From a virus: 45,104 nt of DNA. Numbering within the stretch: the first letter of the stretch is position 1; each line of letters opens with the position of its first letter. The notes beneath the pieces are model-generated. The model ran no database searches. It saw nothing but the letters and a program-made list of their open reading frames with translations, and was not told the origin of the DNA. The stretch is from positions 1-45,104 of the IMG/VR virus record IMGVR_UViG_3300010885_074521; one strand, given 5' to 3'. A program made the translations under genes and the position numbers. This document shows, piece after piece, positions 3,106-45,104 of the stretch.

Positions 3106-6100
3106 TTAATTTATCCATTTTATACTATTAATTTTCGTATACGCAGGTGCACTAGTACTTAATATCTTAAGTATACGTTGCTCTAATGCATATCTTAAGT
3201 TAATATCTTTTATATTAGTATTGCGTATAGCTAAATTAAACAATGTACTTTTAGATCCCGGGGGGTTAATTTTAAAATACCTATCTATTTCTTCAATATA
3301 ATTACGCCTGCCGCATGCAACGTCAAACTTAATATCGTTCATATGCATTCCCTTGCGCGTATGGAACATAATATCAAAATCAAATAACGGTTTATCGTAA
3401 AGATAAAAGTTCTTAAACTTTAAATTTCTACACATATAAGATTTCTTTTTTAAGTAATTGAATAGTGGAATAGAATATGAATAACTAGAAGTTCCTAGTA
3501 AAAATGGGCGGTTAGCGAGATTACTAAATTTATATTTACGTGGCTTGAATTGAACATAATCTTGTATTTGCCCGTCAACAAATAAATGCATATAACCCTC
3601 ATATGAGTCGAACCTAACAGCAAAATTATGATAACCAGCATCAAGCGCAGATAAATTAAAGATTAAATTTATATCCTCTGTATCATTACTATTATATACA
3701 TTTACTAATTTAGCTTTAATATTAAAGTTATATTGAGGATATATTTCTTTTACAAAATTAATTAAAAACGAATCGTTAGAATAGTTTGCACCTACAGCCG
3801 TATTAGTGAAAAATAGTGATGAGCTTTCTTGTACTCCTTCTGTTGAGAGAACTTCTAATTTTAATTTTTTATTTTGATGTTGCGACTGCCTAACTGCTAT
3901 TAATTTTTTATCGTAATTATTATTTATTTCGGCAATTGAAAATGAATTATAATTAGCATAGCTAGTATCTGTGAAAGCACCTGAAAGAATAAACTCTCTA
4001 TCATTGGTATATTTTGCATAATAATTTTTATCAAAAAAGATCCAAAGATTTTTATCAAAATCTATTGTAAAATCATCTATTGATGTTGAGGAATGAAATG
4101 CTATAAATGTTTTTTCACTCGATGTACCGATGTTTTTCCATAAGTAAATATCATTGTTTAATTGATAATAAATTTTATTATCAACTCTTAAAGCTTTTTT
4201 ACCATTAGTTAAATAAAGATTATCTTCATATAAATTAATAGTTCTACAATCGTTTAAAGATGTAATACCGGGTACATATCTTGGTACTTGTGTAATATTG
4301 CTAACAGTTGTATTTTTAAGATCAATCTTTTTAATATTAACCGTAATACTAGGCAGTGTTGCATTGTTAAAAAGTATGTATGCATTGTTTTCATCATTAT
4401 CTTTTCCGTATAGTTGACTAATTCTTACCCCCGGTGTGACTTTTCTTGTCTCAGAATATGATATATTATATCTTCTTATTGTATCATCTTTAAGTATTAA
4501 ATGAATATCGTTTAGACCTTGCTGCCTTATTATTGATACTATATCAGATTTTAATTCTAGTTTATTTAAAATTTCAAAATCAGTATTGGTAATATATAGC
4601 GCGCTAGGTGCATTAAAGAATAGTAACGGTGTAACTACATTTTCGTTAAAAATTCCAAAACCATCTCTATCGTAATTACCTACTATTTGATAGCCTATTG
4701 TTTCTTTCCAATTATTACTATATGCATCAAATATAAGTGTAAATTGATTTGAGCTTTGAATAGATGATAAGTTATTTGTTACTGCGTAGTTATAACCATC
4801 TAGACTATATTCGGTACCATCTACATTGTCTACCGGTGCTATAGAACCATCAACACTAGTTAAAAAGTTAAAATTATTTTGAACTAAATTTTTTGAAAAT
4901 ATTTTTATAAAGTTTGAAACATCTTTTGGGCCGTAGTGATGGTAGGCATAATAAGTACCAGGCTCGAAAATTAAATCAGATGGTTTATCGAACAGCTCTA
5001 TATCACCTAAAAGAGCGTCAGCTTGATTAATTAAACAGTCAAACAATGAAATATATTTAATAGCTTTGTAATCCGAAGATGTTAATGCTTTTATAAACGT
5101 GGTTCTCTTAGGATTAAAGTATCTATCTACCCAAACTGGTCGAGTATTAATATCAGGACTACCTGAAAGCCAAGAACATAAAAAGTTACCAGAATTTTCG
5201 TCAATAGTATTACCAAAAGTTGATGTATATTTATAATCTCCTTTTTTCTTAAAAATTTTATCGGATTTTAGAGGGTTATCACCAGCTATAGCACCAGAAT
5301 CTACTAAACTAGAATCATTAATGTTAAGTCTAGTGAATGGAAAGAAAACTTGAGGTATATGAAAATAAGTTACTTTATCTTTTTGTAAGAGTATTGAAGT
5401 TGTATATGTTTCGTAGTCAACAGATATATTATCATTACCTTTAATTTGATTTGAGCCAGTAAATAATGTCTTATAATCTCTAAATTGAATATTGTCTTCG
5501 GTAAAAAATGGGTTAGCTCTAGATTGATTATATTCGGCTGTACTAGAATTTTTTAATGATAGTAAATTTAAATCAAGAGATTTTTTATTTTCTGATAAAT
5601 TATAATATTCGTTATTTAAAAGTAAGTTTGATTTTATATTTTCATAGCTTCTTAATTCATTTACATTTTGCGAATTGGTTTTTAAGTCTTTTTTATAGCT
5701 CAACCAAGGGTCGAATAGTTTCGTATTGTTAGGTGCTTCGTTTCTAGGTCTAACTCTTAAAATTGAATTTGTAGAGTAAGGTACAGCAGATCCTGTCAAA
5801 GGATCAACTAATATCATGTCCTGAAGACCAGCATCATAAGAAATAAATTTACAAATATCGTTAATATTTTTTATTAATATAATATAATCATAATCTCTAC
5901 TGTAAACATAATAGAAAATTTGAGGGCTATATTCAACTAGAGCATCTAACCCCACATTTTTACAGAAGCTTAGATTACCAGAGTAATCTACAGTTAAATA
6001 TCTTATTATACCATCATTTTCATGAGATATTTTACAAAATTTTTCTGTTATAAGCTCAACATCAAAAAAATTTCTATTATTTAAATCGGTATAAGTACCG

Positions 6101-42797: not shown

Positions 42798-42803
42798 TAT
42801 TTA
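42798..42803 (-). promoter_or_regulatory. Late-type motif CATAAATA before the fibre-like gene
   Basis: TAAATA-N5-ATG, overlapping the 3' end of the terminase gene. Confidence 0.55.
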
Positions 42804-44510
42804 TGATAAACGGCGGTAACCTTGTGATTCTAAGTCAGCTATTTCATTAAAATCTTCATTACCATTTTGTGATATTACAATAGGTAAAGGTGGTACACCA
42901 TCTATACCCATTTTTTCATTACTATATATAGATGTAGGATTCATAAAGTATTTGATTCCATAATCTAATGACTTTATTTTTTGAGGCTTCTTATTCTTAT
43001 CATATTCTACCACTTCAAAGTATTTTTCGCAAAGATCAGTTTCCAGGATCATTAATCCCCATAATAATGACATTACCCTATCGTCCCAACTATCTGATCC
43101 TTCTTTTGCCGCCCATGTACCGTTTGGGTATCTTACAAAACCTTTAAGTTCGTTTAAAGTTTTAAAGTCCCTAATTTTTAATGCACGTACTTCATTCATC
43201 CAGTAACGCATATTCACCACACCTTTATATTTGGTATTAGTATGTGCTTGTACGCCAATCTTATTAAAAGATACAGGGCCGACTTTAGTTCCATACGAAA
43301 CAATATTTTCATACGCGTGAGTATTTTTTAATTGATCTACGACTTGTGCTCCACAATTATTCCTTTCTATCATGGCAAGAGGAGATCCCCAGTGCTGTAA
43401 AACTTCATAAACTTTAGAGGTAAAATTGTAGGGGCTAATTAAACGGTCGTGATAAACTGCAACCTGTTTTATCTCTCGTAAGTCAGTTAAATCTAAAATT
43501 TGTATCACGCTTGCCGCGGCACCTACACCTTCACTTATGTCAACACCGGCAACGTAAATATGATCTTTGTTAGGTTCATCCCACAGCAAATATTTTCCCT
43601 CATCAAAAACAAATTTTGGTTCAGTACATTCCGCTTTCATGTCTTCAAGCAGTTTTTCATCCAAGGCACTTTCCCCTGCTTGCAAAAATACGTTACCAAA
43701 CTCTTGATCAAATACTTCCCGGCTGCCTAAAGTTTTAATAGTCTTTTCTTTCCACGCCTCATCACGACCAGGGAACTCCCACCAGTCTACTTTTTCAGAG
43801 TGCCAATCGTTCCTACCTTCTGTGGCACCGGTATAAAGATCATGAAAAAGATTACCCGTACCGTTTGGTGTAGAAGCAACAAATATCTTAGATTTTTTGG
43901 AAGACGAAATAATAGGATATACAGAACTCCAAAATTGCTCGACAAGATGATTGTCAATAAATGCCAACTCGTCTAAGATTAGTACGTTACAGCTATCGCC
44001 TCGACCAGCATCACTACTAGTTGTTGAAATACCAATACTTGACCCGTTTCCCAGAGACATTGATGTTTTCCCGTATTCTACGGTTCCTGGTTTAAGGTAG
44101 TTTGGTAGTTTCTCATAAGCTAATCTAACTCTCTTAAAAATATTAATAGCGGTTTGCTCTTTATTAGCGACGATAAGAATACGTTGGTCTTCAAAAAAGC
44201 AGGCCATCCATAATGCATATATTGTCATAAGCGTTGTTTTCCCTACTTGTCTCGATGCTAGTAAACAAACAAATCTATTATCTCTCAAACTTCTTAATAT
44301 TCTCTTTTGATAAGAATGAAGTTTAATTTTCATTTTACCTTCATCGAGATTTGTAATGAAGAAAAAGTTTTCTGCAAAGTATAATATGTTCTTTCTTGAC
44401 TTAGCTATATCTTCTACCCACTCCGGATGGGCTTCATAATCAAAAACAGCATCTGTGGTGGGAAGGTTTTGATTACCTAAATAAAATTGACTTTCTTGTT
44501 TTTTAGGCAT
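42801..44510 (-). CDS. 17: Terminase large subunit gp17-like, 569 aa
   Basis: ATPase: Walker A ASRQVGKTT (85-93), Walker B VLILDE (176-181, catalytic Glu 181), coupling motif STP near 213-215. Nuclease (RNase H-like): Asp 324 in VAGVDISEG, Glu 382 in MIERNNCG and Asp 476/477 in SWDDRVM. The length is near that of T4 gp17 (610). It packages DNA into the prohead and makes headful cuts, together with the small subunit (candidate at 27826). ATG at 44510; no TAAATA core precedes it, only AT-rich TATATTATAT, so its promoter is unclear. Divergent from the gene at 44531. Confidence 0.97.
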   Translation of the reverse strand: MPKKQESQFYLGNQNLPTTDAVFDYEAHPEWVEDIAKSRKNILYFAENFFFITNLDEGKMKIKLHSYQKRILRSLRDNRFVCLLASRQVGKTTLMTIYALWMACFFEDQRILIVANKEQTAINIFKRVRLAYEKLPNYLKPGTVEYGKTSMSLGNGSSIGISTTSSDAGRGDSCNVLILDELAFIDNHLVEQFWSSVYPIISSSKKSKIFVASTPNGTGNLFHDLYTGATEGRNDWHSEKVDWWEFPGRDEAWKEKTIKTLGSREVFDQEFGNVFLQAGESALDEKLLEDMKAECTEPKFVFDEGKYLLWDEPNKDHIYVAGVDISEGVGAAASVIQILDLTDLREIKQVAVYHDRLISPYNFTSKVYEVLQHWGSPLAMIERNNCGAQVVDQLKNTHAYENIVSYGTKVGPVSFNKIGVQAHTNTKYKGVVNMRYWMNEVRALKIRDFKTLNELKGFVRYPNGTWAAKEGSDSWDDRVMSLLWGLMILETDLCEKYFEVVEYDKNKKPQKIKSLDYGIKYFMNPTSIYSNEKMGIDGVPPLPIVISQNGNEDFNEIADLESQGYRRLS

Positions 44511-44516
44511 ATATAA

Positions 44517-44524
44517 TATAAATA
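44517..44524 (+). promoter_or_regulatory. Perfect T4-type late octamer TATAAATA before the 44531 start
   Basis: TATAAATA-N6-ATG on the plus strand, in the 20-base divergent spacer with gp17. Confidence 0.7.
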
Positions 44525-44530
44525 CTTAAT

Positions 44531-45104
44531 ATGAACCGGACCAGAACGCTAGTAGAAATGGGTAACTTCTACGAAAAGAACATTATAGAAGAAAAGAAGT
44601 CAGTATTTCCCCCTAAGGATACTTTTAAACTAGCTACAGATAAGAAGCCGGTTGATGCTAAAGCAGATCCTAAGGCTTTTATCAATAAGAAATCTGGCCC
44701 AGAAAATGCTGATGGTTTTAAGAAAGATTTAATTGATCCAAAAACCGCTAAAACAGATAATTTCTTTGAGCCGAAAAAATTCTCACAAAATAATGAAAAA
44801 ACAGAAGTACAAACAATAAATAATTGTATGAGTAAATCTATTTTTGATAAACTATATGAGGACGTAATGTCCGGCCAGCCAGAGGATCTCGAAGCTAGCG
44901 ACGCCGAAGCCCTTGGTCTTCCCGGTGATGATGCCGGAGAGGACGTTGGTGGTGAAGAAGTTTCTTTCACCTTGTCTCGTGATGTTGCTCAAAAGCTTCA
45001 TGATGTTTTAATGGCTGCCCTAGGTGCAGAAGAAGAAAAGGCTGATGAAACCGGTGGCGAAGAGGGCGCTGGTGAAGAAGCCGCTGGTGAAGATGAACAG
45101 GTTG
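44531..45104 (+). CDS. Prohead core/scaffold-like protein (open at right edge)
   Basis: Reads from ATG 44531 to the edge without a stop (191 codons). Residues 1-99 are Lys/Asp/Pro-rich and probably disordered. From Met 100 (44828) the sequence MSKSIFDKLYEDVM, DAEALGLPGDD and a Glu/Asp/Gly/Ala-rich tail resembles the prohead core (internal scaffold) proteins of T4-like phages, which line the forming capsid and are degraded by the prohead protease. A separate late-type motif five bases before Met 100 suggests that the short form starts there. The long form is supported by its own TATAAATA. It begins a plus-strand head module outside the window. Confidence 0.55.
   Translation, partial: MNRTRTLVEMGNFYEKNIIEEKKSVFPPKDTFKLATDKKPVDAKADPKAFINKKSGPENADGFKKDLIDPKTAKTDNFFEPKKFSQNNEKTEVQTINNCMSKSIFDKLYEDVMSGQPEDLEASDAEALGLPGDDAGEDVGGEEVSFTLSRDVAQKLHDVLMAALGAEEEKADETGGEEGAGEEAAGEDEQV
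44817..44822 (+). promoter_or_regulatory. Internal late-type motif AATAAATA, five bases before in-frame ATG 44828
   Basis: TAAATA-N5-ATG inside a coding frame; the ATG (Met 100 of the long form) begins the recognisable prohead-core-like sequence. Confidence 0.5.

Follow-up and report, generated by a model that had tools for sequence, protein, structure and literature searches.

Does the reading frame that begins at position 44531 of an uncultured virus encode one protein, or a long and a short protein that share the frame and its end? The sequence analysed, referred to below as the window, was the whole of IMG/VR record IMGVR_UViG_3300010885_074521, a fragment of 45,104 bp. The initial annotation had placed a late-promoter box, TATAAATA, 6 nt upstream of ATG 44531, had described the frame as open into a core beginning with MSKSIFDKLYEDVM at Met100 (ATG 44828), and had located a TAAATA five bases before that Met codon; all of these coordinates were confirmed. 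The window lacks the gene's 3' end, the frame being open to the contig end with 191 codons readable; its counterpart in the close relative L002 has 303 aa. The features of the locus are as follows.

42801..44510, minus strand: terminase large subunit, the divergent neighbour (phrog_5989, E=1e-50; phrog_2, E=1e-48)
44517..44524, plus strand: late-promoter box 1, TATAAATA, 6 nt 5' of ATG 44531
44530, plus strand: predicted transcript start of box 1, by T4 spacing
44531..45104, plus strand: long reading frame, extension and core, open at the contig end
44531..44827, plus strand: N-terminal extension of 99 residues, pI about 9.2, with the motifs Y14, SGPE.A.GF and KFS..EK conserved
44774..44779, plus strand: A-run ending in the Lys83 codon, AAA in 69/69 with no synonymous change
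44796..44801, plus strand: A-run occupying -32 to -27 relative to the internal ATG, with Lys90 as AAA in 71/71
44816..44822, plus strand: internal late box ATAAATA (TAAATA at 44817-44822), invariant, exactly 5 nt before ATG 44828
44828..45104, plus strand: predicted short in-frame product from Met100, acidic, the internal ATG being codon 100
44828, plus strand: predicted start of the short-product transcript, leaderless, from the T4 box position (PMC2988020)
44828..44869, plus strand: MSKSIFDKLYEDVM, candidate capsid-targeting propeptide, FDKLYEDV invariant in the 71 distinct relatives
between 44860 and 44861, plus strand: predicted propeptide cut after LYE, a gp21-type site

The TATAAATA between the two divergent genes was a single box (44508-44533), lying exactly 6 nt from both starts, that of the terminase and that of the nested gene. 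Its placement looks bidirectional, and no TAAATA belonging to the terminase itself was seen. In L002 the terminase large subunit (3794-5980, minus strand, 728 aa) carried an intein-like insertion after ASRQIGK that was absent from the window copy.

IMG/VR was searched and yielded 80 loci; 79 were fetched with the region readable, as was the window, and 71 of the sequences were distinct (non-redundant). In all 80 readable loci, down to about 35% identity, the upstream frame ran without a stop into MxKSIFDKLYEDVM; a stop separating the two parts, which the initial annotation had proposed to look for, was present in no relative. The full-length products of the relatives mostly had about 270-320 aa and were longer in a few, while the extension varied from 92 to about 120 aa. 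In L070, L072, L075 and L076 the extension had 314-335 aa as against the usual length of about 100 aa, with the internal box and the core unchanged. No relative was found among INPHARED phages by tblastn against 50,697 phage records, nor in bacterial and archaeal genomes, which were scanned once. As judged from these loci, the gene family is common to a large group of uncultured T4-related (T4-superfamily) phages.

TAAATA by itself was common in the window by chance (120 found, 154 expected); TAAATA-N5-ATG (9 found, 2.5 expected from dinucleotide shuffles) and TAAATA-N6-ATG (7 found, 2.6 expected from such shuffles) were enriched. Across 55 distinct loci the distance from TAAATA to ATG peaked at 5 (209 cases) and 6 (91 cases), with most other spacings at roughly 10-15 cases; lesser peaks at 33, 39 and 44 plausibly reflect other ATGs within this conserved gene. 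In the T4 late region the largest counts fell at 24-30, and Syn9 was flat. The late sigma factor gp55 (phrog_234) was encoded in 13 of 15 long relatives. No upstream (-35-type) motif was found when 84 late starts from the window, G003 and G004 were examined, a set that is not independent of the box because the choice of starts in the analyses of G003, G004 and G012 (the records of L006, L050 and L154) was box-aided.

The T4 late box begins at -13, without a -35 element, and, having 8 bp, ends at -6 (PMC2988020). With an N5 spacing, +1 therefore falls on the A of the ATG, and with N6 one base earlier; the start positions given for the window are this T4 spacing carried over. Since the N5/N6 spacing is found clade-wide and Shine-Dalgarno-like sites were nearly absent (before 39 of 704 ORFs of the clade), the late mRNAs look leaderless, and they are predicted to be so across the clade. 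In the most distant cousins TAAATA preceded the core Met by 19 nt (L151, L153 and L155) or by 8 nt (L154), so that exact leaderlessness is not universal.

The scarcity of Shine-Dalgarno-like sites leaves room for another start signal, and TAAATA might be no promoter but a signal for starting translation, with a single longer mRNA carrying both starts. This is unlikely, as both the motif and its spacing are those of the T4 late box, and gp55 is present. Moreover, the box was nearly missing from genes overlapping their upstream neighbour (2 of 89, compared with 60 of 174 others, both counted with box-aided starts), as expected of promoters.

The internal box stood at exactly N5 from the core Met in all 79 fetched loci and in the window. 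Box-like DNA could also reflect a conserved peptide, xIN(N/T/K)xM, within a single ordinary long protein in which Met100 is an internal residue, and Ile, Asn and Met were indeed invariant at the residue level too. The codons, however, were fixed as well. Ile96 was encoded by ATA in 71/71 sequences and Asn97 by AAT in 71/71, while ATA makes up 27% of the Ile codons and AAT 68% of the Asn codons in these genes; the first base of codon 98 was A in every one of the 71. On a tree with a total length of 16.9, Ile96 and Asn97 had undergone 0 synonymous changes, compared with a mean of 9.7 for other conserved columns and with 15-22 each for the invariant residues G56, P57, D106 and L108 on the same 71-sequence tree; most of the invariant residues nearby changed codon freely. 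The internal spacing is also that of the ordinary late genes of the clade, and a single long protein with a merely box-like stretch is improbable. Among the 335 ORFs of G003 and G004, with starts chosen with the aid of the box, an internal in-frame TAAATA-N5/6-ATG occurred only in this gene in each genome. The internal box is maintained by selection at the DNA level inside the coding frame.

Lys83 and Lys90, always AAA, were the only further conserved columns with 0 synonymous changes. The spacing between their two A-runs is about 21 bp, and so is that between the Lys90 run and the internal box. As a general -35-like element, the run at -32 to -27 was rejected: AAAAA occurred there in just 7 of 84 other late starts (again box-aided), which makes it peculiar to this gene and not a feature of the promoters in general. 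GAAAAAAC was discarded as a frameshift site, the heptamer being by inspection out of register with the codons.

When the window was compared with 11 relatives, the differences within the extension were distributed over codon positions 1/2/3 as 192/140/465. Their concentration at position 3 points to protein-level (purifying) selection on the extension, and the long and the short protein are therefore probably both made. Two products had been predicted in the initial annotation, and the comparison favours them, since every relative has the extension, in frame and subject to selection on the protein; the contrary case, an upstream frame that is not conserved, was examined and proved false in all of them. 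That the short product alone is real, the upstream open frame being untranslated or due to chance, is very improbable. N-terminal conservation is stronger in the short form, but the extension shows the excess of third-position differences and never a stop, Y14, G56 and P57 are invariant while their codons change, and the long frame has a late box of its own (TAAATA or TAAGTA at most 8 nt from the first ATG) in 62 of the 71 distinct relatives.

The 99-residue extension was basic, as had been noted, with a pI of about 9.2, compared with about 4.1-4.5 for the strongly acidic core. AlphaFold, run on 29 relatives, gave a mostly disordered model (mean pLDDT 53, pTM 0.15) with short helices at 7-22, 107-116, 121-129 and 153-166.

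That two genes fused recently, in this phage alone, and left the old promoter as a relic is hardly credible: the core does retain a full start (box, spacing, Met and targeting-like peptide), and the clade's late boxes are often found within the preceding gene or just at its end, but extension and core were still fused in every relative, including the distant cousins from a wider core search (to about 30% identity) and the outgroup, and the internal box is under constraint and not decaying. The earlier suggestion of a fusion of two formerly separate genes could not be demonstrated. Searches with the core and with single extension queries, the most distant members included, gave no unfused relative, and no case of an extension without a core occurred among the extension-query matches. 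An ancient fusion of extension and core genes is possible.

The best explanation, to which we assign a probability of about 0.7, is a nested in-frame pair of co-terminal genes with two late promoters, encoding a long and a short protein in an uncultured T4-superfamily clade. The gp55-type late promoter before ATG 44531 would give an mRNA for the long protein, consisting of an extension of about 100 aa, basic and mostly disordered, and an acidic core of about 200 aa. The in-frame late promoter ATAAATA (44816-44822) would give a transcript from ATG 44828, at or within one base, and this leaderless mRNA would yield the short core protein alone. Both promoters would fire, transcription would begin at the A of the ATG, and the host would translate leaderless mRNAs. 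The sequence comparison established the boxes, their spacing, the constraint on the codons of the internal box and the conservation of extension and core as proteins. More tentatively, the short form may expose an N-terminal capsid-targeting peptide, cut after LYE at a gp21-type site, and so enter the head core, while the long form may hold this targeting region internally, behind a leader of its own.

In T4 the capsid targeting sequences (CTSs) are about 10 aa long, and gp21 cleaves on the C-terminal side of L/I-X-E (PMC9026906). The N-terminus of the core, MSKSIFDKLYE/D, with about 10 aa ending in L/I-X-E, matches the T4-type shape, and from this we infer a likeness between the start of the short product and a capsid-targeting propeptide, its gp21-type site being LYE/D. 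In residues 4-18 of the products of small late-box genes, [LI]xE was found in 9/40 (3.0 expected), 9/29 (2.2 expected) and 11/49 (4.0 expected) in three genomes (p about 0.001 or less), other genes not being enriched; this test was post hoc, the motif having already been seen, used box-chosen starts, so that its counts are not independent of the box, and was applied to three related genomes. Tags such as MNKDTKLIFEAY recurred on different late proteins. An N-terminal tag, MN[KR]Dxx[LI]I[FYWSA]E[AN]Y, recurred on different small late proteins of G003, G004 and G012, which makes these tags candidate capsid targeting sequences. The N-terminus of the long form, e.g. SIKDIGLVYEAM, resembles SIFDKLYEDVM by eye.

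The initial annotation had called the gene prohead-core-like. No homology was found behind this name: no PHROG, Pfam or PDB sequence match and no tblastn match in the phage records was obtained, negatives in which the BLAST low-complexity filter may mask weak matches of an acidic, repetitive protein. Queries with T4 gp22/67/68 and Syn9 gp22 gave no match in G003, a long relative carrying the gene. In G003, gp23, gp21, gp13 and gp20 (by sequence) and a gp22-like ORF (by position) lay at 38.8-45.6 kb. The nested gene was at 95.8-96.7 kb, beside the terminase and about 50 kb from the head cluster, and thus outside the gp20-gp23 interval, unlike the prohead core genes gp22/gp67/gp68. The part that stands is a candidate role in the head by way of the targeting-like N-terminus, and a head-core role is plausible through this peptide only. 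It is a tentative and somewhat doubtful extension of this reading that the whole clade uses leaderless late mRNAs (box 5-6 nt before the start) and thereby nests one head-protein gene within another, each of the two co-terminal products beginning with its own capsid-targeting peptide.

Two further arrangements were seen in G003. A late-box ORF of 56 aa (G003:C1:41296-41466, minus strand) lay between gp21 and the gp22-like ORF and is a possible gp67 equivalent by position. At G003:C1:110-16252 there was an array of late-box genes on both strands with the starts MADVTI/MADVSI, probably tail-fibre paralogues.

Nested in-frame phage genes are already known. In the nested scaffold genes of lambda (C/Nu3) and of herpesviruses (UL26/UL26.5), long and short co-terminal head-assembly proteins come from one frame, and the UL26.5 product is made by an internal promoter. 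The extension described here is, unlike theirs, short, basic and disordered, with no protease, and we know of no homology of the nested gene to either pair. T4 gene 17 (isoforms annotated, NC_000866) is alike in belonging to the T4 superfamily and to the head-packaging region, with internal transcription and in-frame co-terminal shorter proteins. It encodes, however, the terminase large subunit, whereas here the protein is a different one, the box is invariant in 71 relatives and a leaderless mRNA is predicted.

With the T4 late promoters (gp55/gp33/gp45) the clade shares the TATAAATA box, the lack of a -35 element and an encoded gp55 sigma factor, but the distance from box to ATG is 5-6 nt in the clade, which would leave neither leader nor Shine-Dalgarno site, compared with 24-30 nt for the largest T4 counts. 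The T4 internal proteins IPI-III (PMC9026906), also late proteins, likewise carry an N-terminal CTS of about 10 residues that ends in L/I-X-E. No sequence homology to the mature parts of IPI-III was found, and the candidate peptide here occurs within a longer protein as well. Pelagibacter phage HTVC008M is T4-like and shows a TAAATA-N5-ATG peak (9) in its structural region; a relative of the nested gene was, however, not found in INPHARED phages. The freely accessible literature searched contained no direct report of internal T4 promoters or of leaderless late mRNAs in T4-like phages.

The two nested products, as predictions, are well supported by comparison, and the predicted leaderless late mRNAs are the wider point of the finding. 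With the internal promoter readable from selection at the DNA level within a coding frame in dozens of lineages, a two-product gene can be predicted even where no phage has been isolated. Candidate internal head proteins could be listed from sequence by the N-terminal tags that recur on late genes, and the clade-wide spacing of box and ATG leads to the prediction that late transcription of the T4 type can operate with leaderless mRNAs.
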